NCBI GenBank assembly: GCA_025963965.1
Contig: JAOPZS010000084.1
Coordinates: forward strand, 62,001 to 126,000
Length of the DNA stretch: 64,000 nt
DNA from: Solirubrobacterales bacterium
GTDB taxonomy: Bacteria; Actinomycetota; Thermoleophilia; Solirubrobacterales; Solirubrobacteraceae
Reading direction: 5' to 3'
Made by a program: the position numbers and the translations under genes. Positions 8,320-29,766 of the stretch are shown piece after piece; position 1 is the stretch's first letter; every line of letters starts with the position of its first letter. The notes below the pieces were generated by a model. The model worked only from the letters and a program-made list of their open reading frames with translations, made no database searches and was not told the origin of the DNA.

Positions 8320-8387
8320 GGGTGCGGGCCGGCAGTCCCGAGTGTCGCGCCCTACGGGCGCGGGACGGGCCGGACCGGCCCGCACCC
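8320..8387 (+). promoter_or_regulatory. Structured leader upstream of ardC
   Basis: A perfect 13-base stem, GGGTGCGGGCCGG (8320-8332) with CCGGCCCGCACCC (8375-8387), closes an inner hairpin CGCGCCC/GGGCGCG (8346-8352, 8356-8362) with loop TAC. GTCCCG (8335-8340) can also pair with CGGGAC (8361-8366). From about 8341 to the start codon the sequence aligns with the parB leader. The shared parts include TCGC-CCCT-ACGGG, a GGNCGGNCCGGC block, CCCGCACCCGGCG and CCACC before the ribosome binding site AAGGGAG. Confidence 0.6.
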
Positions 8388-11251: not shown

Positions 11252-12284
11252 CGTCCCGTGCCGGCGCGCGCGCGAGGTCCTCGATCGAGTCCCGCAGCCG
11301 GCTCGCAAGCCCGTTGAATCGTTCAAGGGCGTCGACCACGAGCTCAGGGTCCGGAGCCTCCCCGCGCAACTGTTGCCGCGCTCGCTGCGCTCGGTCATTG
11401 ACCTCGTAGAAGAGTTCCTCGATATCGAAATACCAAGCCGCGCCGATAGCCGCATCCCAGGAGCGGTAGAACGCTTTCGTGGCAGCGTCTAGATACTCGA
11501 GGGTTTCTGCGGTCAGCCGGTCGGGTGGCGTAGTGCCGATCCGTGCGCGCCACTCCTCGACCAGCTGTTCGAACGCGAACGTCCGTGTGCTGTACGCAGT
11601 CTCAAGCGCTTCGATATCGGCAGGATCGAAGTAGTGGTCCACCTCTCGCGGGTCTATCCCGCGATCCAGATCGCGCTCGACCATTCGGCGGGCGCCCTCG
11701 GCAACCAGACCGGCCGCGACATGCGCGAGCAGGAGGGGCACGCCGAGTGTTGCTGCCAGCGGCGCGGCGGCAATACCCGTGACCGCGATCACGCTCACGA
11801 GGACGAGCAGCTTGCCGGCGGTGCGGACTCCGGACCGGAGCTGTCTCCTGAGCTCCCGCCGCGACACGGGACGCCCCTCGCCCAGTTCGACGAGCCTTTT
11901 GCACAGAGCGCGCAGCCGCTCGCGCGTCGCATCAATGTCCGCGCCTGGCCCGTCCGTCAGAACTTCTGAAAGCGCGATCTGGAGGGCGTTTGCCTGAGAC
12001 TCAGCGGCGGGCGGCGGCACATACCCCGCTTCGTTCAGGAGCCTTGCCCAGTCGAGCCGAAGAACCCCATCGAGCTGGTGCGACTGCTCGGCGGTCAGCT
12101 GCGCTGTCCGAAAGGCCCCGGTCTCGCGGTGAATCCTCGCCCAGAGATCGTTGTCGTCTGCGGTGGCACAGAGAGCTCGGCCGAGATCGAGTGCGGCGTC
12201 GCGAAGCTGACGCATCTCGCTTCCGCGCTGAAGTGCGGCGAGCGCGCGATCTCTCGACTCCTGCAGGATGCCCCCATCCGGCAT
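11244..12284 (-). CDS. Membrane-segment protein, co-transcribed with the recombinase
   Basis: 346 residues starting at ATG 12284. The N-terminal 150 residues are charged helix. Residues about 155-200 form a hydrophobic hairpin (LLVLVSVIAVTGIAAAPLAA, then TLGVPLLLAHVAAGLVAEG) predicted to insert in the membrane. The C-terminal 150 residues are again charged helix. Its stop overlaps the ATG of the serine recombinase gene (ATGAGTGA), so the two are translated together. No known domain was recognised. Possible roles are a membrane-acting effector or an accessory of the recombinase; both are inference. Confidence 0.65.
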   Translation of the reverse strand: MPDGGILQESRDRALAALQRGSEMRQLRDAALDLGRALCATADDNDLWARIHRETGAFRTAQLTAEQSHQLDGVLRLDWARLLNEAGYVPPPAAESQANALQIALSEVLTDGPGADIDATRERLRALCKRLVELGEGRPVSRRELRRQLRSGVRTAGKLLVLVSVIAVTGIAAAPLAATLGVPLLLAHVAAGLVAEGARRMVERDLDRGIDPREVDHYFDPADIEALETAYSTRTFAFEQLVEEWRARIGTTPPDRLTAETLEYLDAATKAFYRSWDAAIGAAWYFDIEELFYEVNDRAQRARQQLRGEAPDPELVVDALERFNGLASRLRDSIEDLARAPARDDE

Positions 12285-12582: not shown

Positions 12583-14766
12583 ATGCCGAAGGTGAACCAG
12601 CGCGAGATGAACTGGGCGCTTGGGAAGCTGCTTCGAGCGCCTGATGACGTCGCGGAGCTTCGGCAGTTTCGGCCTGTCTCAGATCAGGAAGCCGAGCAGC
12701 TTCAGAGCAGCGCCCGAGTGGTTCGAGAGCTCGGGTCCCTCCGTGGCTTCCAAAGCCTGCTCCACGCTGTCGAGCGCTGGCTGGGCTCAGTTGAGCGAGC
12801 CCGTGACCGGCTGGCCGCTGGCAATACGGTCCCAAGCGCGGTCCGCATCTCCGCAGCACTCGACCTGGTTGCCATGAAACGCGCCAGCGCGGGGTGCGTG
12901 CGACAGGTCATCACGACCACGGAGTCGCTAGCGGCCGAAGGCCACGCCGACGCGACGCACACTCAAGCAGTCGACGATGCCCTCCGGTTCCTTCAGACCC
13001 GGCAGGCCTACTTGATCATCTCGGGACTGTCACAGGCGCCCTCGGATGCGGCGATCGAGTTCTCTCTGGTCGACACGGCAGTCCAGCTTTACGGTGTAAC
13101 CGCGTTCAGCGCCAACGCGCTGGGCTACCTGTTGGTGGCGGAGGTAGGTCAGTTCACGGGTATCACCCTCGCGGCGTTGGCCGCCGCCATCGCCGAGCCA
13201 GCCAGCCAGCTTGCAGCGCTGCTCGAGGAGGTGCCTGATGACGTGATCCCGGATCTCGTGCGAGTCGACGGTACCAGCAGCCCGCCTGGTCTGACACTCA
13301 CATCGCTGCCGATCGCCCAGGCCGTGGCGCTTCGCCGGTTCAGCCAACGTCTTCAGACGCTGCCGCCTGACCAGTTCGCGGAGGCTGCGTTCGAGGTCAT
13401 CAATGCGGGCGTCCAACAGCAGGTCGCGATTGGCTCGGTTGACGTCAGTACGGCCTCCGCGAACGCGCGCGCGAGCACTGCGGTCAACGACATGCCGCAC
13501 CTAAACATCACTGTCGACGTCGATCTTGTCGGTTCCGCCCCGATCGACTACTGGAGTGCAACGACTTTCAACATCATCGGCGAGGGCACCGGTCAGCAAC
13601 TGTTCGCAGGGGCTGTGCAGCGAGCATCAGGAGGCGAACCTCTGGCGCTCGAGTGCGAAGGGGCAATAGAGCTCGCCGAACACAACCGGGGCAGCCTCGT
13701 CGCCGCCGGCGTCGACTCTGCAGAGTTGGTGGCGACGATCATGCGGCAGATCGGGCTACCCGAGGACACGATCTCATTCAGCGCACCCGAGCAATCCGCA
13801 CGACATCACGAGCGGTTCGACGTGCTCGTCCCTGTCCGTGGCCTCGCCGTCAGCGACCCAGTGACAATCGGCCGCATCACGATGGTGCCCGTGAGCGACG
13901 GCATACTGCCGCTCGATGCTCTCGACCTGACGCCAGAGCACGTTCGATCCCTCGAGGATGAGTACCGGAATGCGACCGCGTACGCGGTCGCGAGCGTCGA
14001 CGCCGACGCGCTCGATACCGCGGAGGACCAGGGGTACGCGGTGATCGAGACGACGATGGCGTGGCTGGTCGCGCGACAACGCTATGGCTTCCTACGACTC
14101 CCCGACGGCTCGACCCAGACATTCGAGCGGGAGCGAGCCCTGCAGAGCGCCCGCTATGGGGCCGTCGTCCTTGTGCGCGGCAAGAACACGCGCCGCCAAT
14201 GGCTACGTTGGATCAAGGATGCCGGTCGACCGACAGCTAGCAAGCTGACCACCGAATCTGACATCTTGTACCCAGCGCTGCCCGATGATCTGGCCTTGGC
14301 GGACGAGCGGGCGCTCCGGGCGCTGATGCGGGCTGTCAACGAGCCCGGTCTACAGCAGCAGGTTCAAGCACTCTCGGAGGCCCTTGAGGCGTACGTCGCC
14401 GGGGTGGAGCTGCCCGAGTTGTTCTCAAAGCAGCAGCGCGAAGAGCTCCGTGAGCTAGCCCCTGGGTGGCTGAACTCCGAGCAGCAACACAAGTTCGAGA
14501 CGGCGATCAACACCCTCAACGCGCCCCCGTTCGGTGCGCGGCTCTCGGAGCGGCTCGATCGCGATGGTGTGCCGCTGACCGACGTGGAGCGGAGGCTCCT
14601 GTTCGGCACGCTGCGAGCTGCGCGCAACGACGTTGCACACGGACGAGCAGTCAGGAAGCCACCCACGCGAGATGAGGTTCTGCGAGGCATTAGCGTCGTG
14701 TCGCGGGCGCTGCTATTTAGCATCACGGTTAAGAGCCAAAGCTGCGGCGGACCCGCCACAGGCTGA
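12583..14766 (+). CDS. Large protein with C-terminal HEPN-like motif, candidate defence protein
   Basis: 727 residues from ATG 12583. The first 300 residues are helical (for example LRGFQSLLHAVERWLGSVERA). The middle 300 are mixed alpha/beta with strands such as FDVLVPVRGLAVSD. The last 130 residues are helical and contain RAARNDVAHGR around residues 680-688, the Rx4-6H motif of HEPN ribonuclease domains, in the arrangement seen in ApeA-like HEPN proteins. HEPN proteins in mobile elements usually cleave RNA to abort phage infection. The gene stands beside a SIR2-NACHT gene in the same direction and shares an upstream motif with it. No other domain was recognised; the HEPN call rests on the motif and helical context. 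Confidence 0.6.
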   Translation: MPKVNQREMNWALGKLLRAPDDVAELRQFRPVSDQEAEQLQSSARVVRELGSLRGFQSLLHAVERWLGSVERARDRLAAGNTVPSAVRISAALDLVAMKRASAGCVRQVITTTESLAAEGHADATHTQAVDDALRFLQTRQAYLIISGLSQAPSDAAIEFSLVDTAVQLYGVTAFSANALGYLLVAEVGQFTGITLAALAAAIAEPASQLAALLEEVPDDVIPDLVRVDGTSSPPGLTLTSLPIAQAVALRRFSQRLQTLPPDQFAEAAFEVINAGVQQQVAIGSVDVSTASANARASTAVNDMPHLNITVDVDLVGSAPIDYWSATTFNIIGEGTGQQLFAGAVQRASGGEPLALECEGAIELAEHNRGSLVAAGVDSAELVATIMRQIGLPEDTISFSAPEQSARHHERFDVLVPVRGLAVSDPVTIGRITMVPVSDGILPLDALDLTPEHVRSLEDEYRNATAYAVASVDADALDTAEDQGYAVIETTMAWLVARQRYGFLRLPDGSTQTFERERALQSARYGAVVLVRGKNTRRQWLRWIKDAGRPTASKLTTESDILYPALPDDLALADERALRALMRAVNEPGLQQQVQALSEALEAYVAGVELPELFSKQQREELRELAPGWLNSEQQHKFETAINTLNAPPFGARLSERLDRDGVPLTDVERRLLFGTLRAARNDVAHGRAVRKPPTRDEVLRGISVVSRALLFSITVKSQSCGGPATG

Positions 14767-15100
14767 CCGCTGTCCGGCCCTTGAGGCCAGCTTCGATCGC
14801 GGCGCATCAGGGGATTTCGGGAGGTGCGGGCGCGGGTACGCTCCGAGGTCGCGGCGGGCGTGTATCAGGCGCGACCGCTTACGAAACTGACCACGCCAGA
14901 GAGCGGTCAGAGTGGGTTCAGTGCTCCGCGCTTGTGGCGGCGTGCGCCCGAGGTCTTGCGTCCTAACCGGCAATGCGCAAGTCAGGAGCGTACCTACCCC
15001 CGACGCAGCCCTGACCCCCTCCCCCGAGGGCGTCGCATCAGCCCGGCCAGTCTCCGCCGCCACTCCGTCCGTTCCCTCGGCCGCTAGCTTCTCAGGCACC
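14767..15100 (+). promoter_or_regulatory. Promoter region of the SIR2-NACHT gene
   Basis: No gene is supported here. The second copy of the 26-base motif lies at 14868-14893, and GACCGCT within it (14872-14878) can pair with an AGCGGTC near 14903-14909. A TAGCTT hexamer at 15085-15090 is placed 10 bases before a TTG at 15101. That matches the layout of several leaderless genes in this window, such as the HIT, nnr and glycosyltransferase genes. Confidence 0.45.
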
Positions 15101-18100
15101 TTGTCCGACCCAGCCGACCCAGCCAACGCGCCAGACCAGATGGGTGCGGCCGATCCGTATCTGCGGCCGCCCCAGAACGTGATCCCGGTTCTCGGCGCGG
15201 GCGTCACACAGAGCGCGGGGCTCCCTGGTGCCGGCGGCCTCGCCGAGTACCTGCTCGATACTCACGGGCATAGGAACGACTACACCGACGATCCGCGCTC
15301 CCTGACCCAGGTTGTGGACTCTTTGATGAATGCCGGGCACGCCGAGATCGGGCTGGCCGCGTCCCTGGGCTCGTATGTCGGTTCGTGGGAGCCCGCCTCG
15401 TCACCGCTGATCGAAGCCATGATCCGTGTCCCGTCCCGGTTCATCGTCACGTTCAACTACGACGTGACTCTCGAGCAGGCCGCCGAAGTGCAGGGGCAAT
15501 CGGTGCTCACGCTGGGGAACAGCCATAAAGATTTGGCCGACGCACAGCGTCTGCTCACCGGCACCTGGCCGCCGAGCGCGCTGACGGTTCTCCACCTTCA
15601 TGGCAGCGTCATGGCGCCCGAGGAGATGGTCCTCGGGCCCGAAGCGTACGCCCGTATGGTGGACCCGGCCCGCAAATTGCTCTATGAGCTGGCGGTCCAC
15701 AAGAGGCTTGTGTTCTACGGCACCGTTCTCGACGAGGGCTACATCGTCACTGAGCTCGGGACTGTCACGAACCGTGCGGAACACGTTCTCTGGTGTCGTG
15801 CCGACGAGGAGCCAGAGCTAACGAGCGGGCGCCTGCCGCTTCTCCGTAGCCGCACGGGCATCGTAATCCGGACCGTCAAGCATTACGACGAACTGGCGGC
15901 GACCGTCCCGGTCCTCCCTGGCCACCCCGTTACCCATGTGCCTGTCTTGGTCCCGCCGATTGAGCTCGAGGCCGTCGCGTACGTCCCGAATCGGCTCGTC
16001 GACAACCGAGTGGAGGACGACCGCGAGGACGCGGTCCGCCGCTCCGCTGGGCTGCCGACAGCGTGGCCGCCGGCGCTACCGCCGACCGAGACGGATGTTC
16101 TCGACGCTCCTCGCACGATCGTGATCGGGGATCCCGGCACAGGCAAGAGCGAGCTCCTGCGCCGTCTCGCGGCCGATTCTTCCTCCTCGCGCCCGGGAGT
16201 CCTGATCCGCCTCGTTGACATCGGCCTCGAGGAGGCATCCCCTCGAGCGACGCTCGCGTCCTGGGCCGCCCGTGGGACAGCTGCTCCCGGTCTCGACGTC
16301 GGCCAGGGTGCTCTCGACGCGGGGAGCTACCACTTCTTCCTCGACGGCCTCGATGAGGTGTCGAACGTCCTCCAGAACCAGATTGCGACGGAGATCAACA
16401 CGCTCGCGCGTGAGCTGCCGCAGCATGCGTTCACAGTGTCGAGCAGGCCGCTGCCATTGCTTGCGTTCCTCGCGCTCGACGCCCCGGAGTCCATCGACTG
16501 GCGCCACATCACTCTGGCCCCGGATGACCAATGGCGCGACCTCTACCTCGCCGAGCGCGGCGTCACGCTCGATCGGCTTCAACACGAGATGCCTGCGCTC
16601 CTCGACATGACCGACGTCCTGACGACTCCGTTCTATCTGCGCCATATCGTCGACCTACACGACGATGGAGAGCTCGCTGGACTCCGCGATCTCAGCGATG
16701 TCCTGAACGCGTTGGTCACCTCCGCGATCGAGCGCGAGCAGAGCACGCTGAGTCTCGACAACGACGCAGTCTCGGCGTGGCTTAGAAAGGTGGCGCTTGC
16801 CGGTGTACTCGCTGGCCGGCGCACGTTCACTGAGCCCGAGCTCCGGGAGTTTGCGCTTCCAGAAGGAGCGACCGGTGATCCTGCGCAGCTCGCCCGGGCC
16901 CTCGAGCAGCGTCTGCTACTCGCCGAGGATCATGGCAGCTTCCGCTTCCATCACCGGCTGCTCGGAGAGCAGGTCGCGGCTGACGCGCTGATCGATGCCG
17001 GGCCGCAGCCCGAGATCCTCGACTGTCTTGTGCCGTTCCTTGACGCGGCGCTCAGCGGTGTCCGCGCGGACGCGATAGTTCCCGTCGCACTTGCGTGTTT
17101 GCGCTCGCAGCAATGGCGAGATGCGGTCGCGGCCCGTGACCCGCTGGCCGCTGCACGGGCGACACCCACGCAGGCGGCCGAGCCCGATCGCGAACGGGCG
17201 CTTCGTGCCCTCTGGCAGAACGCGCTGGATAGCCAGATCTGGGTCTGGGATTACGGCACCCAACTGACCGATGACGCCGAGGCAATGGGCCGACTCGGCC
17301 GGACGCTGAGCGACACTGCGCTCGCCCCGATCCTCACCGCGGTGCACGACGGGACCCCGGAGGATCAGGGCAACGCGATCCGAGTCCTCGCACGAGCGCG
17401 GCCCGACGCGATCGAAAGCGACCTCCGTATGCTCCTTGCCGATCCAGACCGCAACGGTGTGGTGTTGCGGCAGGCCGCCATCGCGGCAGCTGACGCCGCC
17501 ATCACACCCCTGATCGACGACATCGTCGCGATGCTCGTCGCCCGGCCCGACAGTCTCGTGCAGCAGGATGGAGTGCACTCGCTGCTGCGGCTGACACCTC
17601 CGGGCCGCTTGCTTGAGATCGGCCGTCAACTGATGGGGAGTAAGGAGGCCGACTACGTGCTGACGGCGATCGCGGACCGTTTGGCGCCGGCTGAGAGTGT
17701 CGTCCTAGCGGGCGTCTACGTGAGCGAAGGGAATGACCTAGAGCGGAGCTGGCTAACGGAAACGGTTCTTGCCGCCATGGCGCGTGTAGAGGCCGCCGAC
17801 GTGACGCGGGACGTCGTGGCCGCCACTGTCGAGATCGCGCTCACATGGCACATCGAAAGCGACGACGTCATCAGGATTTGCCGAAGTGACCGCGATACCG
17901 CGCTGAAGCGCCTCGCCGAGATACTGGCGGCGCGCGACATCGGATGGTGGGATGGGATTCGAATCGCCCAGATCTTCACCGCGCAGGAGATGGAAGGCTA
18001 TGCGCTGCCACAGGAACTCGTCGAACGTGTCGCGTCTCAGCACGCACAGCAAACTCCCGAAGGCAAGACGGCGGCAGCCGATGCGTTCGCCGAGGGGAAG

Positions 18101-19216
18101 GTTCTTGCAGGCAAGGCGCGCAAAGTGCGTCTCGAGCGCGGGGAGCCCGCGACGCTTGGCGAGCTCTTGGAGCGCCCCGAGAGCGAGCGCGCTCAAAGCG
18201 ACGCTGAGATCCTTGGCGGGCTTCAACGCTTCGCAAGGCAGGTCGGGGATCTCAGCACCAGCCAGCGCCAAGCGCTGATCGGCCGGCTCGAAGCCTGGTG
18301 GCCTGAAAAGCCTTTTCGGGCAACGATCACGCGTCTCTCTACCAATGAGTGGAGGCAGGAGGGGACGGCGGCCGCATGGACCTGGATCGGCCCGCTTGCC
18401 AGACCGCCCCTTCCGGTTGACCGATGGGCACAGCTCGCGACTTGCGGCGTCGCAATGCCTGAGCTGCAGAAATGGCTGCTTGAGACCGAAACGTCTGACG
18501 GCGCGTACGCTGCGATCGGTTTTCTCGCTGGTGAGAGGGATCCGCGCCGCTGGTGGCACCTACTCGCGTGCTGTCGTGATCCGCTTCCGAACGCACTGCT
18601 CTTCGCTTGCTCGGAATCCGTCGACCCGCAGCCGGACCCGTCTGACGAGGAGGGTGTCGTTCGCCAGCTGACCGAGATCGGCCATCGATTTCTCCGTAAT
18701 GACCGTGAGGATCTCGCACTCTCCCTGGCGGCACGTCTCCCGGCTTTTAGCAATGCGCTGATGCCTCTGCTTGCTGACGCAGGCGACGTCGCGGCACAGG
18801 AGCGTCTGCTTGCCGAACTGACGGACCGCGTGGACGGTACTGACCGCCCTGCGGTCACCGAGTTGTTCTGGGTGAAGGCGATTCGTTCGCCGGCTCTGTT
18901 GCCGTTGCTCTTCGGGCTGCTGTGGCGCGCGTACCCAGATGGAGAGGCTTCGCCCGTGTCTCCGCCGCGCGTGGTCAGTGGCTATGAACCGCATGACATC
19001 ATCAACCCGATGGTGGAGGCGATCGCCGCTGTCGGCGGCCGTACCGCGGTCGCCGCGTATGACGACCAGATCGCAGCGGCTCCTTACATGCGCTGGCTCT
19101 CCCCGCAGCGCGAACGCATCGCGCTGGAGGTTTTGACCCGTGACGGGCACCGTTTTCTTAAGGTCGCCGCGGCCCGTGCCGGCGTTCCGTGCCTCGAGGG
19201 CGAAGTCGGCTCGTAG
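15101..19216 (+). CDS. SIR2-NACHT protein, candidate antiphage STAND system
   Basis: The start is uncertain. TTG 15101 is preferred because of the promoter at 15085; ATG 15140 is the alternative. The upstream frame to 14912 is low-complexity. From TTG the protein has 1371 residues. An SIR2-like domain spans about residues 25-290 with NVIPVLGAGVTQSAGLPG, FIVTFNYDVTLE, VLHLHGSVMAPEEMVLG and LVFYGTVLDEGYI. A NACHT-type NTPase follows, with Walker A GDPGTGKS at 343 and Walker B FFLDGLDEVS near 411. The long C-terminus is HEAT-like helical repeats. Family knowledge: SIR2 effectors deplete NAD+ when a sensor NTPase detects phage, killing the host cell. The gene stands alone on its strand with no partner gene. 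Confidence 0.85.
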   Translation: MSDPADPANAPDQMGAADPYLRPPQNVIPVLGAGVTQSAGLPGAGGLAEYLLDTHGHRNDYTDDPRSLTQVVDSLMNAGHAEIGLAASLGSYVGSWEPASSPLIEAMIRVPSRFIVTFNYDVTLEQAAEVQGQSVLTLGNSHKDLADAQRLLTGTWPPSALTVLHLHGSVMAPEEMVLGPEAYARMVDPARKLLYELAVHKRLVFYGTVLDEGYIVTELGTVTNRAEHVLWCRADEEPELTSGRLPLLRSRTGIVIRTVKHYDELAATVPVLPGHPVTHVPVLVPPIELEAVAYVPNRLVDNRVEDDREDAVRRSAGLPTAWPPALPPTETDVLDAPRTIVIGDPGTGKSELLRRLAADSSSSRPGVLIRLVDIGLEEASPRATLASWAARGTAAPGLDVGQGALDAGSYHFFLDGLDEVSNVLQNQIATEINTLARELPQHAFTVSSRPLPLLAFLALDAPESIDWRHITLAPDDQWRDLYLAERGVTLDRLQHEMPALLDMTDVLTTPFYLRHIVDLHDDGELAGLRDLSDVLNALVTSAIEREQSTLSLDNDAVSAWLRKVALAGVLAGRRTFTEPELREFALPEGATGDPAQLARALEQRLLLAEDHGSFRFHHRLLGEQVAADALIDAGPQPEILDCLVPFLDAALSGVRADAIVPVALACLRSQQWRDAVAARDPLAAARATPTQAAEPDRERALRALWQNALDSQIWVWDYGTQLTDDAEAMGRLGRTLSDTALAPILTAVHDGTPEDQGNAIRVLARARPDAIESDLRMLLADPDRNGVVLRQAAIAAADAAITPLIDDIVAMLVARPDSLVQQDGVHSLLRLTPPGRLLEIGRQLMGSKEADYVLTAIADRLAPAESVVLAGVYVSEGNDLERSWLTETVLAAMARVEAADVTRDVVAATVEIALTWHIESDDVIRICRSDRDTALKRLAEILAARDIGWWDGIRIAQIFTAQEMEGYALPQELVERVASQHAQQTPEGKTAAADAFAEGKVLAGKARKVRLERGEPATLGELLERPESERAQSDAEILGGLQRFARQVGDLSTSQRQALIGRLEAWWPEKPFRATITRLSTNEWRQEGTAAAWTWIGPLARPPLPVDRWAQLATCGVAMPELQKWLLETETSDGAYAAIGFLAGERDPRRWWHLLACCRDPLPNALLFACSESVDPQPDPSDEEGVVRQLTEIGHRFLRNDREDLALSLAARLPAFSNALMPLLADAGDVAAQERLLAELTDRVDGTDRPAVTELFWVKAIRSPALLPLLFGLLWRAYPDGEASPVSPPRVVSGYEPHDIINPMVEAIAAVGGRTAVAAYDDQIAAAPYMRWLSPQRERIALEVLTRDGHRFLKVAAARAGVPCLEGEVGS

Positions 19217-19423: not shown

Positions 19424-21721
19424 CTATTGGGAACCAGCCTCGTCGGCTGGTTCCCACGACCGAGCGGACGTGAAGTCGATCCAGTCACAGCGCACCTCGA
19501 TGCGCACCTCGCGTCCGTCGGCGGGCACCAGGAACGGCTCGAGCTCCACAGGGACCGGGAAGTACAGCCCGTCGAACAAAGCCTGAAGCGGCTGGGTTAG
19601 TTCGACTGCGCCGCCGGCGCTCAGCCCGTCGGAGCCCTCGGTTGTTATCAGCTCGTCTAGGCGCACCTCGAACTGGAACGCGGTGGAGATCAGATCCGAG
19701 GCGATCAGCATGATCTTATTCCCGGCCCAGACCCCGCCGCGGCCCTCGCACTGCTGGATCACATCTCCGTACACGCTCGCCGCAGTCTTCGGTATTCGCA
19801 GGTAGTAGCCGCTCAGCGCCGCGAACTCCTCGGCGCCCTCAATGCGCACGAGCTTTGGGATCCTTCCCTCTTGTGGCTGCTGATCATCCGGGGCGTCCTC
19901 AGCCGCCTGCACGCCTGAGCCGCCTCCTCCGCCGCCCCCACCGATGCGGATCACGTGCACGTCGGACTGCGTGACAACCTCCCGCTGCGTGCCGCGCTGA
20001 ACGACCTCCACGTCTCCGCTGGCGAGGATCCAGAGCTCTGACTTGCGCTTGGCTAGGAAGTCGAGGTTCACGGCTCCGCTGCCGAAGAACTTCGGACTGC
20101 GCCCGCGTAGCACGTTACCGAGGTACTCACGTGCGAACGCGGCGACAAGTGAGTAGAACACCCCGCCGATGCCGAGCTGCTCGAGCTTCTTGATCTCGGA
20201 GTGGCGCACGTCCACGTACACCCGGAGCTGGCTCGAGATCGAGCCGGCCGCGAACACCGGAACGTCCTCGGTCAGCCGGCCCGGTATCAGCGACAGGTTG
20301 CTGACCTCGTAGGACTGGCTGATCGTCAGCTCCAACTCGCTGAGGAACGCGCGCTCGAACACGCTCAGATGCTCGTAGCGCTCGGCGCACTCGATCTTCC
20401 CGTCGAACGCCTCCGCGCCGCAGTGGCTCGTGAGATATTCGGTGATAGCGGCCTTCTTGGCGTGATCGCTGGGAAGCTGCACGACGATGTGCCCGCGGGT
20501 CTGAAGGAGCTGGCTGAGCGCCTTGTTCTTGCTCGTGGCGAAGTACACCTTGACGGCGCCGTCCGCCTTGCGCCTGACCTCCTTCAGCTGGGTCTCGCTG
20601 CCATCGGCGAGCTCGACCGCGACGTTGCCGATCCGGTCAACCATTCCGTTCCGGCGCACGTACTGGAAGATCCGCGAATGTTGGCTGATCCGCTCGGGGG
20701 ACTCGAGCACAGCAAGCGTCGCCGCGCGCTCCATACTCGTCACTATCGAGGCTAGGAGCGCTCCCGAAGCGGGGTCCAGCGAGTCGCGTCCCGCGGTCGG
20801 TGATAGCCGGTCGCAGTCGATCACGCCTGAGACGCCGATGTCGGTGCCGACGGTGGTGCTGCAAATCTTGAACCCGCGCTTGAGCACAGCGACTGGGCCG
20901 TTCTCGAAGCGCAGCCAGCCCCGGACCCGCACCGGCTCGCCGTCGATCGACATCTCCCGCACCTCGGCCTGCAGCTGATGGCCGGGTGTCTCATACAGCT
21001 GCCCGGCGAGTTCGACGCTGCCGTGGCTCCACTGGGTTGTGGCCCCCGTGATCGCGGTCAGCTCCCTGTTGCTCTCGCTGGGTAGCCGGAACGCACGCCG
21101 GGAGACGGGCTCGCCGTTAAATGACACGTTCTCCTCCGCGTACTGAACGAAGTCCGCCACGAAGGCGAGCAACGCCTCGGTGTCCGCCTCCTCCTTCAGG
21201 ACGCCTCGGACGATGGTGCCGCGCGGTGCCGCATCGCCTGACGCGCCGTTTGACACCCGCGGGATTTTGCCGCCCGCCTGCTCGATGTCCGCGCGCGTCA
21301 GCTGCGTCCAATTCCCCGTCTCCGCCCCGGAGGCCTGCGAGACGACCCGAAGCTCATCACAGACTCCGAAGTTCGCGAAGCCGCCGATCCCGAACATGCC
21401 GACGCATCCGGCGGCGCGCGCCTCCTCGGTGCGCTTGCCGCTCGCCCCGATCGTCCAGAACAGGTTGCGGAGATCCTCGAGGCTCATGCCGATCCCGTTG
21501 TCGGTGATTTGGCACACGTTTCCCTCGGCTAGGATTTGCACGCTCAGGCCCTCATCGGAGGAGGGGATTTCTTGGCGGGACGCCTGCATCCGCAGAGCGT
21601 CGATCGCGTTCTGCACGTTCTCGCGGATGAAGGCGAGGGGAGTCTCGTAAATCTGCTTGGAGATCGCCGCTAGGACCGAGTCGAACTCGATCCCGACCTG
21701 GAAGCCGTCGTCTTCACCCAT
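19424..21721 (-). CDS. Hsp90-like (GHKL) ATPase, partner of a metallophosphoesterase
   Basis: ATG 21721 overlaps the upstream gene stop by eight bases (ATGGGTGA). The 765-residue protein has the Bergerat ATP-binding fold of Hsp90/HtpG at its N-terminus. IRENVQNAIDAL is the N box with Glu/Asn, ITDNGIGM is the G1 box, and VGMFGIGGFANF is the glycine lid. A middle domain follows (GVIDCDRLSPTAGRDSLD resembles the HtpG catalytic-loop region). The C-terminus contains a poly-glycine linker of nine glycines near residue 630 and then a domain unlike HtpG. Length exceeds typical HtpG (about 630). Tight coupling to a phosphoesterase, in a defence island, suggests a conflict system rather than a general chaperone; that is inference. 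Confidence 0.8.
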   Translation of the reverse strand: MGEDDGFQVGIEFDSVLAAISKQIYETPLAFIRENVQNAIDALRMQASRQEIPSSDEGLSVQILAEGNVCQITDNGIGMSLEDLRNLFWTIGASGKRTEEARAAGCVGMFGIGGFANFGVCDELRVVSQASGAETGNWTQLTRADIEQAGGKIPRVSNGASGDAAPRGTIVRGVLKEEADTEALLAFVADFVQYAEENVSFNGEPVSRRAFRLPSESNRELTAITGATTQWSHGSVELAGQLYETPGHQLQAEVREMSIDGEPVRVRGWLRFENGPVAVLKRGFKICSTTVGTDIGVSGVIDCDRLSPTAGRDSLDPASGALLASIVTSMERAATLAVLESPERISQHSRIFQYVRRNGMVDRIGNVAVELADGSETQLKEVRRKADGAVKVYFATSKNKALSQLLQTRGHIVVQLPSDHAKKAAITEYLTSHCGAEAFDGKIECAERYEHLSVFERAFLSELELTISQSYEVSNLSLIPGRLTEDVPVFAAGSISSQLRVYVDVRHSEIKKLEQLGIGGVFYSLVAAFAREYLGNVLRGRSPKFFGSGAVNLDFLAKRKSELWILASGDVEVVQRGTQREVVTQSDVHVIRIGGGGGGGGSGVQAAEDAPDDQQPQEGRIPKLVRIEGAEEFAALSGYYLRIPKTAASVYGDVIQQCEGRGGVWAGNKIMLIASDLISTAFQFEVRLDELITTEGSDGLSAGGAVELTQPLQALFDGLYFPVPVELEPFLVPADGREVRIEVRCDWIDFTSARSWEPADEAGSQ

Positions 21722-23486
21722 TGTCGTAGTCTTCCCTTGCCTTCGTGATCGCGTCGCGCAACGGAACGTCTCCTGTTCTCGTGGCCAGGTCCCGAGCGTA
21801 GGACACGACGCGGGCGCTGGCGGGCCAGCGGTGGACTGCGTCGACGGTGGCCGCGACCGCACGGGCGGTCTCGTTGTTCACCTCGAACGCGCCGGCAGCG
21901 AGGAGATACTCATCCTCACCGACGCTCAGCTCATCGATCAGCTCCTGCGCGAGTACGGCGGCGTGCGCCCGCTTGGGCGCCTCGTCGCTGTGCATCAGCG
22001 CCATCGCGATCATCCGTCGACCAAGCTGGGCGAGCGCGGGATCGCTGCTATTCAGCGCCCGGCCTGCTTGCAACTCCAGAGCGTCCCAGTCTTCCTCGGC
22101 TGCCAGCTCTCGCAGCAACAGGGCGGTATGGGGAGCCACGAGGCCACCGCCGGCCTTCTCGCCGGCCGGTTGCGCGGCGGCGACATCGCTAACGCGGCGG
22201 CGGCACTGCTCATCTTTCTCAGCCTTCTCCTCGAGCCATGCGGCGAACTCGATTACTTGCTCAGCATGCTCGCGTACGCGTTCGCCGAGCGCGACGCCTT
22301 CCCGCCTGATTCGCAGCAAGTTACGGAGTCCGAGAAATGCCAGTGCCGGCGCGGCCTGCTCGGCGTCGCTGTCGTGAGCCATCGAGGAGGTCACGAACAT
22401 TATGGCCCCGTCGATCTCCAGCGGGATCTCCTCTTTCTCACCAAGCAACAGCGCCGCCATATATCCGGCGAACGGGCTTGCCTCGGGAGCGCTCGCGGCG
22501 ATGGCTGCTGAGAGTTCCGGTCCCGTGCCGGGGATCTCGCCGCCGAGATCGCAGGGCGTCCGGATCACTGGCTCGGCCGCGAACTCCCCATCCTCCACGT
22601 TGTAGCGGTACTCGGCTACCGCCGAGGAGCCTGTGGCGAGGTCGACCGTCACGATGTTGTAGGAGTTCGGGTGGAATCGGCTGCCGTGCGCCGAGCCGGC
22701 AGCCACTAGGACGCATTTCCGCTGCGGCGAGGTCGCAACATCCGCAGTGTGCAAGTGCCCTCGATGCAGGAAGTGCGCCCCCTCCAGCAGCCTGCTGCGG
22801 CAGCTCGCCTGATCCCATTCCGTCAGCCACTCAAGCGGATGGTGCGCCATTGCCACCACGAGTTGCGGGTCGATTTCCCCGACGATTTCGAGTGCCGCGA
22901 TGACCTGCCGCTCCCCAATGATCAACGTTTTCTCCTCGGACTCGCCGCCGCAGAGCCAGGCGGAGTTCATCCCTGCCACCGCTACCGTCAGCGCCTCAAG
23001 CTGAACCTTCGCGACGTATCCCAGGCCGTCGGGTGTTGCTGTTCGCTCCTGCCCGCTGGCGAAGCCCTCCACGAATGCTCGATACGCACGCTGGCGGTCC
23101 GCCAGGTCTGCCATCACAACGGGGTCGCCGAGGGCCTGGTCCACCGCCTGCTGTGAGGTTAGGACGTGTCTTGCTCCGATCTGCGCGAAACGGTGAGGCG
23201 CGCGGTCGACATCGTGGTTGCCGGGGATGAAGAAGAACCGGGACGTCGCGACCGATATCCGAGCCGAAAGCTCGCTCAGGAACTTCGCTGCTCGCTCGTA
23301 CTCCAACGGTTGCCCGGAGTAGGCGATGTCGCCGCTGACGAGCACGAACGCGATCGGCCCGTGCTCCTGTGCCCGCACCGTCAGGTCGGCGAGCAGCGCG
23401 TTGCAGGCGACCGTTTCGGAAAAACGGTCGCCCCTGCTCCTGAAATGAAAGTCGGAGACGTGCAGCCACGCGATGCGGTCGATCAA
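21714..23486 (-). CDS. Calcineurin-like metallophosphoesterase with helical C-terminus
   Basis: The start is TTG 23486, chosen because CCAGGAGAAG lies just upstream and the protein then begins MIDRIAWLHVSDFHFRSRG, the first metal-binding box. Upstream in-frame sequence to 23798 looks non-coding. The 590-residue product contains all five phosphoesterase boxes: SDFHF, VSGDIAYSG, IPGNHDVDR, MAHHPLEW and HRGHLHTAD. Residues about 340-590 are helical, with a TPR-like character (EDWDALELQAGRALNSSDPA). Its stop overlaps the start of the Hsp90-like gene, so the pair is translationally coupled. Likely substrates are nucleotides or nucleic acid; the specific target is unknown. Confidence 0.8.
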   Translation of the reverse strand: MIDRIAWLHVSDFHFRSRGDRFSETVACNALLADLTVRAQEHGPIAFVLVSGDIAYSGQPLEYERAAKFLSELSARISVATSRFFFIPGNHDVDRAPHRFAQIGARHVLTSQQAVDQALGDPVVMADLADRQRAYRAFVEGFASGQERTATPDGLGYVAKVQLEALTVAVAGMNSAWLCGGESEEKTLIIGERQVIAALEIVGEIDPQLVVAMAHHPLEWLTEWDQASCRSRLLEGAHFLHRGHLHTADVATSPQRKCVLVAAGSAHGSRFHPNSYNIVTVDLATGSSAVAEYRYNVEDGEFAAEPVIRTPCDLGGEIPGTGPELSAAIAASAPEASPFAGYMAALLLGEKEEIPLEIDGAIMFVTSSMAHDSDAEQAAPALAFLGLRNLLRIRREGVALGERVREHAEQVIEFAAWLEEKAEKDEQCRRRVSDVAAAQPAGEKAGGGLVAPHTALLLRELAAEEDWDALELQAGRALNSSDPALAQLGRRMIAMALMHSDEAPKRAHAAVLAQELIDELSVGEDEYLLAAGAFEVNNETARAVAATVDAVHRWPASARVVSYARDLATRTGDVPLRDAITKAREDYDNG

Positions 23487-23873
23487 GATGCTTCTCCTGG
23501 GGAGGGGCTCGTCGCCGCAGTATTGCGGCCCGGCCCCTTTCGTAGGTACCGCGAGCTTGGCGACTGCGGGACCGACAGAGAACGATGGCTGACTGAGAGC
23601 GCCGATCGTTCCCCTTGGGGTCTCGGCGTCCGCGAGTGATCGCGCTGCCGCCAGCTGCCCCAAGAGCCGGACGGCCGACCGGCGTTCGTTCCTCCCGGCT
23701 CCGCCCCAGGAACTCACACCGAGACCAAGAACCAGCTTTCCGTCCGAGAGCACGTCACTGGTCTCTAAACGGGGCCAGAGAGGACGGACTAGATGCACGG
23801 GGGTGCGAGGAGGTACCGATCGGTACCTGTGATTTCGGCCGCTCGGACCGGTTTCGGGTCATGTTCTGGCGTG
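23487..23873. promoter_or_regulatory. Divergent region upstream of the relaxase, oriT candidate
   Basis: A 387-base gap lies between the leftward phosphoesterase and the rightward relaxase. An 18-base perfect palindrome, AGGTACCGATCGGTACCT, sits at 23811-23828, about 45 bases before the relaxase start. Its half AGGTACCG recurs near 23543. oriT sites of MobF relaxases often lie next to the relaxase gene and contain inverted repeats, so this region is the natural candidate. It could equally be an operator. No gene is supported here. Confidence 0.45.
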
Positions 23874-26477
23874 ATGACGGCGCAGAGCATCGGGGCTGCG
23901 AAGGGCGGCGGGTATGCGAGGTACCTGGAGTCGAAGACGGTCGCTCCGGAGCCTGGTGCGTATTACCTGACGCCGGAGGGCGAGCCGACCCAGGCGGCCG
24001 GGCGCTGGCACGGGTCGCCGGCGACGCTACGGCGGCTCGGGATCCACGGGCCCGCCGTGGAGGGGGACGACTTCGTGGCGTTGATGGAGGGTCGCCACCC
24101 GGCCGGCGGCTGGTTGCGGAAAGCGGGCGCGGACGGGGAGCGTGGGGGAGGGATTGACATCACGTTCAGCGCTCCGAAGTCCGTGTCGATCGAGTGGGCA
24201 CTCACCGACGACAGCACGCGGGAGCGCATTGAAGCCGCACACAGCAAGGCGGTCACAAAAACGGTCCAGCACCTGCTGTGCAGCGTCCCTGTTGTCCGCC
24301 GTCGCGTCGACGGGCAGGTGATCGAGGAGCTCGCGGCAGACCTCGTCGCAGCCGAGTACCGGCACACCACCGCCCGTGGAGTCGAGCCGGACGATCTTCC
24401 CGACCCGCAGCTGCACAGCCACGTCGTCATCACGACCGCGATCCGTCAGGACGGGCGAACCGTGGCGGTCGCCTCCCGGCCGATCTTCAGATCCGCAAGG
24501 GCAACCGGCGCCTACTACCGCTCCGCGCTCGCGCAGGACCTCGAGGCCGCCGGGTATGAGATCGAAGCGGGGACGGGGCGCGACGGCCGGTACTTCGAGC
24601 TCACAGGGCACCCTCGAGCGTTGATCGACGCGTTCTCCGCCCGGAGCCGGCAGGTCGCGGCGGCCGCCGAGCGGTTCCGAGCGAAGTGGGGGAGAGCACC
24701 AGAACGCGGCGAGCTACGACGCGTCAAGCAAGAAAACAAGAGCAGGAAGAAGCTCGTGAACCGCGGCGACCTCGACCGCGCCTGGCAACACACCGCCGAA
24801 CACGTCGAGCAAGCCCAAACGAGCCGCATCACCGTCGACCGGGCGGCGCCTGCCGAGCGGGTCGACGCGAAGCTCACAGAGCGAGCAGCCACATTCGGTC
24901 GCAGCGAGCTGGACGCGATCAGCCTCGAGCAGACCGTCGGCGAGTTCCACCCGAACGAAGCGCTGCGGCTAGCCGAGAGGATGATCGAGAGCGGTGCCGT
25001 GGTCGGGCTCCGCGATGGGCGGTTCACGACGCGTCGTCAGCGCGACCGAGAGGCACGGCTCGAGCAACGGTTCGCCGAGCTCGCCGCCACCCGGCAGCGA
25101 AACTCGCCGCGTGAGCAGCACCGCGAGGACGCCCTCACGAGCGTCACCGAGCGGATCGGACACCCGCTCGATGCGGATCAGGCGGCAGCGGTCGCGACGC
25201 TCACCGGGCCCGAGCGGGCCGCCGTCCTTATCGGGCCCGCCGGCACCGGCAAGGGCGTCGTGATCGATGCCGCCGCGCTCGCCGAGCAGCAAGCGGACCA
25301 CGACACCTACGGCGTCGCGGTCTCCGGGTCCACCGCGCAGCGCTTGGGGCACGACACGCCGGCGTTGGCAGAGAAAACGCTGACCATCGACGCGTTCATC
25401 CAAAGAGTCGAGCACGGGCGCCTGACGCTCGACCCCGGGACGGTCGTCTACCTCGATGAGGCCGGGGTGGCGGACACGAGCCGACTCGCCGCACTTACCG
25501 ACACCGTGCACCGGGGCGGAGCGAAGCTGGTCCTGATCGGCGATGAGGCGCAGCTCCCGTCGATCGGCGCGGGCGGCATGTTCGACCGGCTCGCAGGGCT
25601 CGTCCCGCACGCGGAGCTGACAAGCGTCCACCGGACGAATGATCAGGGTGAGCGCCGGGCATGGACGGACCTCAGAGCCGGCCGGACAGACCGGGCGATG
25701 GCGCACTACCAAGCAAGAGGCAGGCTCCACATCGCTCCGACCCGCGATGAGGCTATCGAGCGGGCCGTCCAAACATGGGCGCGGCTCACCCGGGACCACA
25801 CCGTCGAGTCCGTTGCGCTGCTCTCGGACGCGTCGAACGTCGAGATCGACAGGCTCAACGCACGTGCACAGACGTTCCGGATCGAGCGAGGGCAGCTCGG
25901 AGCGGAGGAGCTGCCGATCCCCGGCACCCACTACGGCGTCCGTGCCGGCGACCGCATCGCCACGATCGAACAACACCACCCCCCCGAGGAGCCCCGTGTC
26001 GAGAACGGGAGCCGCGGGATCGTCCTCCAACTCGACGCCGACACCGAAACGGTGCTCGTCAGGTTCGACGGCACCGGACGCGAAACGACCCTCACCGGTG
26101 AGGATCTCGCGAAGCTCAGGCTCGCCTACGCCCAACACATCTATCGCGCCCAGGGCGCCACCTACGACCGAGCCTTGGTTCTCACCGGCGGCTGGCAGAC
26201 AAGCCACGAGACGAGCTACGTCGAGGCGTCTCGTGCCCGGCACGGTGCCGACTGGTACGTCAACCGGGAAGAGCTCGGCCAAGAAGGCGACGACCCCGAG
26301 CGGATCACGAGGCTCGCCGCGAAAATGCGACAAAGCCAGACGCAGATACCGTCGCTGGACTGGGCGGAGCGCCGGTCGGCCGAGCCTGAGGGCCGACCGA
26401 CGCTCCGCAACCCGTTCAGCCAGCTCCTCACACGTCATCGTCAGAATCGGGAACTCACGAGGGGACCGCAGCGGTGA
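23874..26477 (+). CDS. MobF-family relaxase-helicase (TrwC/TraI-like)
   Basis: ATG 23874 gives 867 residues starting MTAQSIGAAKGGGYARYLES, where the early tyrosines (YARYL) are the likely nicking residues. FSAPKSVSIEWAL is the hallmark box of TrwC relaxases. EYRHTTARG and DPQLHSHVVI supply the three-histidine metal site. A RecD-like helicase follows, with Walker A GPAGTGKG near residue 460, Walker B VVYLDEAG, QLPSIGAGG, and the C-terminal box HIYRAQGATYDRALVL. The enzyme nicks oriT and unwinds the transferred strand. It is shorter than F TraI and lacks its long C-terminus. The next gene overlaps by four bases. Confidence 0.9.
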   Translation: MTAQSIGAAKGGGYARYLESKTVAPEPGAYYLTPEGEPTQAAGRWHGSPATLRRLGIHGPAVEGDDFVALMEGRHPAGGWLRKAGADGERGGGIDITFSAPKSVSIEWALTDDSTRERIEAAHSKAVTKTVQHLLCSVPVVRRRVDGQVIEELAADLVAAEYRHTTARGVEPDDLPDPQLHSHVVITTAIRQDGRTVAVASRPIFRSARATGAYYRSALAQDLEAAGYEIEAGTGRDGRYFELTGHPRALIDAFSARSRQVAAAAERFRAKWGRAPERGELRRVKQENKSRKKLVNRGDLDRAWQHTAEHVEQAQTSRITVDRAAPAERVDAKLTERAATFGRSELDAISLEQTVGEFHPNEALRLAERMIESGAVVGLRDGRFTTRRQRDREARLEQRFAELAATRQRNSPREQHREDALTSVTERIGHPLDADQAAAVATLTGPERAAVLIGPAGTGKGVVIDAAALAEQQADHDTYGVAVSGSTAQRLGHDTPALAEKTLTIDAFIQRVEHGRLTLDPGTVVYLDEAGVADTSRLAALTDTVHRGGAKLVLIGDEAQLPSIGAGGMFDRLAGLVPHAELTSVHRTNDQGERRAWTDLRAGRTDRAMAHYQARGRLHIAPTRDEAIERAVQTWARLTRDHTVESVALLSDASNVEIDRLNARAQTFRIERGQLGAEELPIPGTHYGVRAGDRIATIEQHHPPEEPRVENGSRGIVLQLDADTETVLVRFDGTGRETTLTGEDLAKLRLAYAQHIYRAQGATYDRALVLTGGWQTSHETSYVEASRARHGADWYVNREELGQEGDDPERITRLAAKMRQSQTQIPSLDWAERRSAEPEGRPTLRNPFSQLLTRHRQNRELTRGPQR

Positions 26478-28123: not shown

Positions 28124-29431
28124 TCAACTGGTCGCTGCCGCACGGGCGATTGCCTCTTCGGTTGCGATCGCGCCGGCTGCCAGGACGTGCCGCTCGAGGT
28201 GGCCGTAGTAGCGCTCGGTCGTCGAGATGTCCGCGTGCCCGAGCTGGCGTTGCACGTACATAAGCGAGTTCCCGGCCGCCAGCCACGATGCGGCGGCTGT
28301 GTGGCGCAGCGCGTGCAGAGGCATGTCTCTGAGCGCGGCGTCCTGCAGGGCAGCCTTGTGCCAGTCCCGGGACACAGTGGTCCGGTCCATCGCCTCGCCG
28401 TCACCGCGGCCGTGCCACCGGCCCAGCTCGCGTTTGCGGCTACGCGCCGGCATCACGAACACAAGCCTCTCCCGGCCGGCCCTCTCAGATCTCTCAGCGA
28501 GATGCGTTTGTAGTTGTCGGGAGAGTCCGCGTCCGATCTCGACGGGCCGGAATCGGTCGGACTTGGTCGAGCCGACCCCGTCGCGCTTACTCGACCGGTA
28601 CACAACGATCACGCCGCCCGTCTCCTCGAGCTCTAGATCCCCGATCTTCAGGGCGAGTGCCTCGGAGATCCGGAGCCCGGCTCCGACTAACACCTCGGCG
28701 AGCGGCCGATAGACCGCGGAGCAGGAGTCCAGGTAGAGCGGGATCTCGTGCAACCGCAGGTACTCGGGCTCGCGATGCGCGGCCGGTAGCCGCTTCACCC
28801 GGGATGCGGGGTTCGATGGGAGCAGCCCGTCTTCGACCGCCACGTTCAAGCAGACAACCAGGGTGGCGAGTGTGTTGTTGATCGTCTTCGACGCGAGATC
28901 CCCCGCCGCCATCGCCTCCGCCCACCTGTCCATCAGCTCCCGTAGTCGCTCGACATCGAGCTGACCGAGCGGCACATCGCCGAGGGTGGGGAGGAGGCGC
29001 AGACGGCCGTCGCGCTCATACGCGGCCCAGGTCCCGGGCTCCAGGTAGGGCTTACGGCGCTCGAGCCAGCGAGCCCAATGCTGACCGAACGTCTCTCTGG
29101 TGTGGACGACCTCGCGGCGGACCACCTGCTCGACGACGCGACGACGGGCGTCGCGGGCGGCCGTTTCGCTAGAGAACCCGCGCTTGCTGGTCATGCTCCC
29201 ATCCGAGCGGCGCACCACATAACGCCAGCGCGTACCGGCCGTGGTCCGGTACGCGTAGACGCCCCCCGCTTGGCCGTGCCTTCCCTTGTCGCGTTCGCCG
29301 GTGGCCTGGTCGCGGATCGCTCCGTCGAACGCGTGTGCGGCCGCCTTGTCCTTGAAGCGCTTGGAGCGTTGCCTACCTGCGGTGTCGCGCCACCGGACCT
29401 CCCAGGCGCCCTTGGCGTAGCTGCAGCTCAT
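28124..29431 (-). CDS. Tyrosine integrase of the mobile element
   Basis: ATG 29431 gives 435 residues beginning MSCSYAKGAWEVRWRD, the usual arm-binding N-terminus; upstream extension runs into the repeat region. The core-binding domain is at about 110-200 (ETFGQHWARWLERRKPYLEP). The catalytic residues are visible: Arg in GAGLRISEALAL, Lys in YRSSKRDG, HALRHTAASW-like box (PLHALRHTAAASWL), His in GHADISTTERYYGH and the nucleophile Tyr in the same stretch. The gene ends in the element and its 5' end faces the 3' end of tRNA-Leu 150 bases away, so that tRNA is the likely attachment site. Confidence 0.92.
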   Translation of the reverse strand: MSCSYAKGAWEVRWRDTAGRQRSKRFKDKAAAHAFDGAIRDQATGERDKGRHGQAGGVYAYRTTAGTRWRYVVRRSDGSMTSKRGFSSETAARDARRRVVEQVVRREVVHTRETFGQHWARWLERRKPYLEPGTWAAYERDGRLRLLPTLGDVPLGQLDVERLRELMDRWAEAMAAGDLASKTINNTLATLVVCLNVAVEDGLLPSNPASRVKRLPAAHREPEYLRLHEIPLYLDSCSAVYRPLAEVLVGAGLRISEALALKIGDLELEETGGVIVVYRSSKRDGVGSTKSDRFRPVEIGRGLSRQLQTHLAERSERAGRERLVFVMPARSRKRELGRWHGRGDGEAMDRTTVSRDWHKAALQDAALRDMPLHALRHTAAASWLAAGNSLMYVQRQLGHADISTTERYYGHLERHVLAAGAIATEEAIARAAATS

Positions 29432-29452
29432 CGGTGGTCGGTGACCGTCGCC

Positions 29453-29517
29453 TGTTCGGACCGGCCGAGAATGTTCGGAAAAGTGTTCGGATTTGTCAGT
29501 GGCAACAATCCGAACAC
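29453..29517. repeat. TGTTCGGA repeats between integrase and tRNA
   Basis: The octamer TGTTCGGA occurs directly at 29453-29460, 29472-29479 and 29484-29491, and inverted at 29509-29516. The last two form a perfect 11-base inverted repeat, GTGTTCGGATT (29483-29493) with its complement at 29507-29517. The cluster lies just upstream of the integrase start. It probably binds the integrase or a repressor; the half-site also resembles half of the LexA box near 29770. Confidence 0.55.
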
Positions 29518-29553
29518 TAGATATCAACGACGATGGAAAGGGCCCAGACGCAG

Positions 29554-29578: not shown

Positions 29579-29582
29579 CGCA

Positions 29583-29668
<86 letters not shown>

Positions 29669-29766
29669 AGAGTGCGCGAGTATAGCCCCGCACTCATGGC
29701 TCGGAGGGTCGACTGGGGCTGCTGCGCCCGGCCGTCTTGCATCCGTCCACGCTCGGCGCTACATTG

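Follow-up and report, generated by a model that had tools for sequence, protein, structure and literature searches.

Calcineurin-like metallophosphoesterases (MPEs), PNPases and caspases serve as interchangeable effectors of conflict systems that are gated by chaperones or GTPases (PMC7159879, PMC8195603). In DS-8, a metallophosphatase-NACHT anti-phage protein, the MPE active site is essential for phage defence (PMC13092281). Gated systems with a nucleoside-triphosphatase (NTPase) core of the STAND, MoxR or GTPase type have been described; in the open literature that we searched, none has a core of the Hsp90 type. Here we analyze a gene pair from a Solirubrobacterales bacterium, found in a 64,000-nucleotide stretch of contig JAOPZS010000084.1 (hereafter the window, to which all positions refer unless stated otherwise). 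The pair consists of an upstream MPE gene and a downstream gene for an Hsp90-like GHKL ATPase, both on the minus strand. The pair has the look of an immune system, so far undescribed, whose switch is of the Hsp90 type, and the sequence evidence argues strongly for a role in anti-phage defence.

Conservation and exchange within the gene pair

With the ATPase alignment alone as the query, we scanned 84,980 species genomes as well as viral contigs, and the following counts refer to the best 80 genomic loci of this profile scan. At 74 of these loci the gene immediately preceding the ATPase, in the same orientation, encodes an MPE, and since the scan was queried with the ATPase only, this adjacency is not due to chance. 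The other six loci are either cut by a contig end (two) or have the MPE replaced (four). In some draft assemblies, for example at L108, L110 and L136, the MPE frame is broken. The loci span 14 bacterial and 2 archaeal phyla. The first-pass annotation had called the two genes a module and named a lack of adjacency elsewhere as its refutation; the adjacency is kept across 16 phyla. The 8-base overlap that it had read at the junction is likewise present in the window, and the commonest junction in the relatives is a 4-bp overlap (28 loci).

The tree of the loci intermixes phyla, from which we conclude that the pair was transferred horizontally. Its first clear relative was found on Pseudomonas aeruginosa plasmids, where an MPE gene overlaps an ATPase gene as long as that of the window and the pair adjoins an ABC-three-component locus. 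On plasmids as a whole it is present in 4 of 72,556, all four conjugative and of two kinds. The ATPase profile scan furthermore detected the pair in three contigs of the viral collection; viral contigs gave no match with the window ATPase as single query or with the profile of its clade, and no pair was found in phage genomes. Neither about 200 genomes of the host's wider group nor 386 sampled species from the phylum of L085 and 398 from that of L084 yielded a further copy. The pair is thus rare, patchy and horizontally spread. The identities of the two proteins co-vary across the loci (r 0.93, to which shared ancestry contributes). Compared with the nearest relative, L062, the effector is 51% and the ATPase 72% identical, showing that the effector diverges faster, and third codon positions change most in both genes.

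Two of the loci deserve a separate remark. On a plasmid of Rhizobium sp. 007, the annotation shows two wrong genes in place of one MPE gene of 490 aa, which is intact (L032, 7535-9004); the 152-aa gene in front of the ATPase, considered as a truncated MPE or another partner, was rejected because the 490-aa frame is open. At the alphaproteobacterial locus L103, two more GHKL-type genes follow downstream of the pair (9907-11472 and 13188-14342).

The enzyme in front of the ATPase is not always an MPE. At L083, L084 and L087 the upstream gene encodes a PNP_UDP_1 enzyme of the phosphorylase/MTA-nucleosidase superfamily (PF01048, 1e-19 to 3e-26), in which the DMESAG and RGxSD motifs with the catalytic Glu/Asp are invariant in all three sequences and which carries an extra C-terminal part. 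At L085, a cyanobacterial locus at a contig edge, the last part of the upstream gene encodes the C-terminal segment of a caspase and, behind it, tetratricopeptide repeats (TPRs), so that caspases are apparently a third effector type. The MPEs themselves fall into subfamilies of about 590 residues, to which the window protein belongs, and about 485 residues. The tail of the shorter MPEs aligns with the PNP tail (hhalign 92.8%, E 3.9e-7), while 60 shuffled controls reached at most 4% and an E-value no better than 0.01; judged by these profiles, the C-terminal helical domain is homologous between the ~485-residue subfamily and the PNP effectors. Because of the PNP and caspase loci and the common tail, we read the sequences as showing a constant ATPase whose partner is swapped in its catalytic part, in at least one branch on a common tail.

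The ATPase has an Hsp90 fold. Its AlphaFold model (mean pLDDT 83.6) superimposes over residues 1-547 on TRAP1, Hsc82 and HtpG with Z of about 24; the match to TRAP1 reaches Z 24.7 over residues 1-442, HtpG (an integrative model) aligns over 4-547, and the Hsp90 alignments end at residues 547-554. The Bergerat residues E34, N38, D74-x-G-x-G, K96, G108 and FGIG are present together with the catalytic Arg of the middle domain (PTAGR312), and save for one change at G76 all of these are invariant in 84 of 84 homologues, in agreement with the intact Bergerat boxes of the first-pass annotation. The nearest NCBIfam models are those of Hsp90 proteins, at scores below their cutoffs (53.1 versus 371 bits for HtpG, 86.5 versus 455 bits for the HSP90 family). 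Behind the Hsp90 part follows a domain of about 140 residues, which is kept in every clade and has no sequence relative in Pfam or the PDB; the protein is therefore indeed longer than HtpG by an unmatched C-terminal domain, as had been noted. The poly-glycine linker noted alongside it is real in the window protein (about residues 593-605), but it is not a conserved trait. A separate HtpG-like gene is present in 19 of 24 genomes with the pair. Phage RIIA proteins, which antagonize Rex exclusion, have this Hsp90-like fold as well. This common fold alone may account for the likeness; mimicry or counter-defence is possible.

In the MPE, the predicted metal boxes and helical C-terminus were both recovered: the ligands D12, H14, D53, N90, H91, H216 and H246 are invariant in 73 of 73 sequences and H244 is kept in 72, and the model (pLDDT 85.9) is all-helical behind the catalytic domain, with residues 506-573 TPR-like by profile matches to consensus TPR proteins. 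The catalytic domain resembles Lmo2642, Rv0805, GpdQ, purple acid phosphatase, SMPDL3A and Mre11 (Z 18-23); the top match is YydB at Z 33.3, an entry that is an integrative rather than an experimental model. The closest NCBIfam model is NF053861, DS8_antiphage (6.4e-37, below the curated cutoff).

The relatives appear to lie in defence-rich surroundings. Their immediate neighbours have matches to NsnA, type I methylases, type II enzymes (restriction endonuclease), PARIS AriA, PD-T4-2, HEC-01, Dsr2 and GmrSD, and also include integrases and resolvases. The 131 neighbours matched 170 PADLOC families versus 74 for 119 control genes, where families and not genes were tallied and the controls came from actinobacterial chromosomes, that is, from other phyla than the loci. 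Most of the families in the control set are due to a small number of genes resembling helicases or kinases, and the family types differ clearly between the two sets.

A proposed clamp-gated effector and its alternatives

We think it probable that the pair is a mobile two-gene immune system of the abortive-infection type, in which the Hsp90-like ATPase gates a swappable, nucleotide-destroying effector. The ATPase would be the constant switch and the upstream gene the interchangeable effector, whose catalytic domain (in the window a DS-8-type MPE) would hydrolyse a nucleotide or a signalling nucleotide and whose helical, TPR-like tail would tether it to the ATPase. At rest the complex would hold the enzyme inactive. 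An infection cue, sensed directly or via a client protein, would then alter the ATP-driven clamp cycle, and the enzyme, freed or activated, would drain nucleotides or remove a needed cyclic nucleotide, so that the infected cell is halted. We propose such a clamp-gated effector because MPE, PNPase and caspase form the known set of NTPase- and chaperone-gated effectors, and because DS-8 depends on its MPE active site against phage and the window MPE is homologous to it. A nucleotide is favoured over nucleic acid as the predicted substrate since the same ATPase also pairs with a PNP-family enzyme and since the closest sequence relative of the MPE domain is DS-8, whose enzyme is SMPDL3A-like.

The computed support comprises the conserved operon, the Hsp90 fold, the intact active sites, the effector exchange, the common tail of the PNP effectors and the ~485-residue MPEs, the mobile and apparently defence-rich setting and the DS-8 homology; the physical complex, autoinhibition, trigger, substrate and phage protection we infer. 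The first-pass annotation had already put forward that the Hsp90-like protein may sense or hold a phage component and may control the enzyme; the control gains indirect support from the invariant catalytic residues, the translational coupling, the co-divergence and the effector swapping. Several points weigh against the proposal. For the ~590-residue MPEs, the clade of the window protein, the alignment between their tail and that of the PNP enzymes is weak (hhalign 5.9%), so that for this clade we only infer a common tail. The effector swap consists of three PNP loci and one caspase fragment at a contig edge. Finally, the comparison of defence neighbours is suggestive, being rough, made per family and based on controls from other phyla.

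The strongest rival, which we nevertheless judge unlikely, is a toxin with a dedicated chaperone-antitoxin: the Hsp90-like protein would merely restrain the MPE or PNP enzyme, loss of the chaperone would free the toxin, and the unit would serve mainly to stabilise the mobile element or to exclude rival elements. The invariant two-gene order, the coupling and the location on an integrated element with a relaxase would suit such a unit, and chaperone-controlled toxin-antitoxin systems are known (TAC, PMC7159879). However, the catalytic residues of the ATPase including Arg312 are invariant in all 84 homologues, which argues for an active cycle and not for passive holding, and the homology to DS-8 points to phage defence.

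The readings of nuclease restriction and of housekeeping fit the effector exchange poorly. A nucleic-acid restriction system, in which a GHKL clamp would drive a nuclease resembling Mre11/SbcD in the manner of the MutL/MORC-type ATPases of restriction systems, appears to us quite improbable. The MPE shares its fold with Mre11/SbcD (Z 18-20; TIGR00619, 1e-5), GHKL ATPases do occur in restriction systems (PMC2292703), and the BbrUII model matches at 1e-6; yet the same ATPase pairs with a member of the PNP family, whose substrates are nucleosides rather than nucleic-acid chains, the unit has neither a DNA-binding domain nor a methylase, and the closest validated relative of the MPE is DS-8. An accessory Hsp90-phosphatase signalling pair for phosphoproteins or stress, analogous in bacteria to PP5 on Hsp90, would have matching components, the TPR-like tail and the Hsp90 fold in its favour, with PP5 among the weak structural matches (E ~0.03), but is very improbable given the rare, patchy and horizontal distribution (no copy in the sampled relatives and species above), the apparently defence-rich surroundings and the PNP and caspase swaps, which are ill-suited to a phosphatase pathway.

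The integrated element

A stable chromosomal setting of the pair was considered and rejected, since the pair rides on an element integrated at a tRNA-Leu gene. The tyrosine integrase of the element adjoins tRNA-Leu(GAG), and further element genes encode a relaxase, an ArdC-like protein, ParB, a large serine recombinase and a SIR2-NACHT protein. Direct copies of the tRNA 3' end, 59, 51 and 30 bp long, lie at contig positions 8363, 13611 and 35782, with the tRNA at contig position 91581. The nearest repeat bounds about 56 kb, and a second tRNA-Leu(GAG) sits at the far copy. These repeats suggest several integrative elements stacked at one tRNA gene; the arrangement looks like a tandem array. The coordinates are collected in Table 1.

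Table 1. Positions in the window of the gene pair, its domains and element features.
Feature	Position	Strand	Basis or remark
MPE gene (calcineurin-like metallophosphoesterase)	21714..23486	-	TTG start, 590 aa; PF00149 (Metallophos) 3e-7
Hsp90-like GHKL ATPase gene	19424..21721	-	ATG start, 765 aa; PF13589 (HATPase_c_3) 8e-11
AGGAG ribosome-binding site ahead of the MPE TTG start	23494..23498	-	read from sequence
8-bp stop/start overlap ATGGGTGA joining the MPE and ATPase genes	21714..21721	-	read from sequence
MPE catalytic domain, residues 1-315	22542..23486	-	AlphaFold model and structural matches
MPE all-helical C-terminal part, residues ~320-590	21717..22529	-	model secondary structure
ATPase N-terminal Bergerat domain, residues ~1-215	21077..21721	-	Pfam and alignment
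ATPase Hsp90 middle domain with catalytic Arg312, residues ~229-434	20420..21037	-	model versus TRAP1/Hsc82/HtpG
ATPase post-middle-domain region, residues ~435-565, partly equivalent to the Hsp90 C-terminal domain	20027..20417	-	structural alignments
ATPase poly-glycine/low-confidence linker, residues ~596-613	19883..19936	-	sequence and model
ATPase extra C-terminal alpha/beta domain, residues ~620-760	19442..19864	-	model and clade alignments
MobF/TrwC relaxase of the element	23793..26477	+	domain profiles
Tyrosine integrase of the element	28127..29527	-	PF00589 5.6e-21
tRNA-Leu(GAG), attachment site	29582..29669	-	three copies of its 3' end lie farther upstream on the contig

The pair is flanked by the SIR2-NACHT gene (14912-19213, plus strand) and the relaxase gene, and domain profiles agree here with the first-pass annotation. 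The former encodes a 1434-aa protein with SIR2_2 and NACHT-like domains, a short stretch of which resembles EruA; it is likely a second defence gene of the element. Next to it, at 12583-14766 on the plus strand, lies a gene for a 727-aa protein that has no significant match in Pfam, PADLOC or NCBIfam and whose C-terminus weakly resembles a RiboL-PSP HEPN domain (E 0.05). The large serine recombinase (9278-11455, minus strand) carries C-terminal HNH repeats associated with homing endonucleases.

Comparison with described systems

We searched Pfam, PADLOC 2023, NCBIfam 2026 and open-access text for a system that combines a core of the Hsp90 fold with exchangeable effectors, and found none described or modelled there. 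PADLOC has no model that covers either protein as a whole, its effector models being matched by the MPE and PNP domains. A search of the open-access literature for Hsp90 paired with a phosphoesterase and phage defence returned nothing relevant, subscription papers and preprints lying outside its scope. Within these sources, the first-pass annotation was thus correct that no named defence system has exactly this pair.

The closest validated relative of the effector, DS-8, shares the N-terminal MPE domain (residues 8-297, 290 residues). The window MPE scores 126.8 bits versus a curated cutoff of 790, short of a full-length match. Moreover, DS-8 is a single protein gated by NACHT, whereas the 590-aa MPE has no NACHT match, bears a helical, TPR-like tail and is accompanied by a separate gene for the Hsp90-like ATPase. 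DS-9 (PMC13092281) is likewise a two-gene unit with an MPE effector (NF053862, 9e-19), but its partner is a HAD phosphatase in place of an Hsp90-fold ATPase. The GASH and MoxR-vWA ternary systems (PMC7159879) also combine a constant NTPase or chaperone core with swappable calcineurin-MPE, PNPase and caspase effectors; their core, however, is a GTPase or a MoxR AAA+ protein, and Hsp90 is unmentioned in that paper. By Pfam, both genes of the pair lack a DO-GTPase with GAP1/GASH or a MoxR with vWA, and no core of this type is among the 25 commonest Pfam families of the 131 neighbours. Conversely, the MPE-GASH loci L034 and L035 have no Hsp90-like gene.

HtpG and the actinobacterial PRK14083 HSP90 have the N and middle domains, the Bergerat site and the catalytic Arg in common with the ATPase of the pair, which differs in scoring far below the family cutoffs, in its extra C-terminal domain and in having an effector in the operon. 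The actinobacterial PRK14083-type Hsp90 gene, separate from that of this ATPase, has a gene for a very large, weakly TPR-like protein behind it; such a large helical-repeat partner, overlapping or adjacent, occurs in 8 of 10 sampled genomes (L178-L187) as well as at L033. In Bacillus subtilis, YydB-YydD combines an MPE, the closest fold to the window MPE domain, with an SMC/ABC-like ATPase, which belongs to another fold than the Hsp90-like partner. PNP-family ATP nucleosidases act as immune effectors in Detocs and other systems; the enzymes at L083, L084 and L087 share this PNP_UDP fold, with ATP as a possible substrate, and differ by their helical tail and Hsp90-like partner. Tiamat (TmtA) also has an N-terminal GHKL ATPase, and its PADLOC model matches the ATPase of the pair at 2e-4 (residues 14-130), though with about 117 GHKL residues and 17.7 bits against models of 1302 and 1655 residues this is far from a full-length match; to our knowledge, Tiamat is a single protein with no MPE partner.

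By analogy, and by folds alone, the arrangement resembles eukaryotic PP5 on Hsp90, in which a TPR protein with a calcineurin-like phosphatase works with Hsp90. In PP5 the TPR lies at the N-terminus, in the window MPE the TPR-like part is C-terminal. Were our proposal true, bacteria and archaea would be able to use the Hsp90 clamp cycle as a switch that responds to infection, and the pair would be a minimal two-protein model of how Hsp90 controls TPR-tailed enzymes. It would also add a class missed by current defence finders, because each gene alone resembles a generic phosphoesterase or "ATP-binding protein". The exchange of effectors on one core makes the gating logic directly testable with chimeras. 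One may tentatively go further, with rather less confidence than we have in the system itself, and speculate about a prokaryotic immune class in which an Hsp90-family clamp is the common switch and exchangeable effectors dock by a TPR-like tail, a counterpart of the eukaryotic logic of Hsp90 and TPR cochaperones seen with PP5 and NLR immune receptors. For now, the pair is best placed among the NTPase-gated effector systems, and it may well merit a class of its own.

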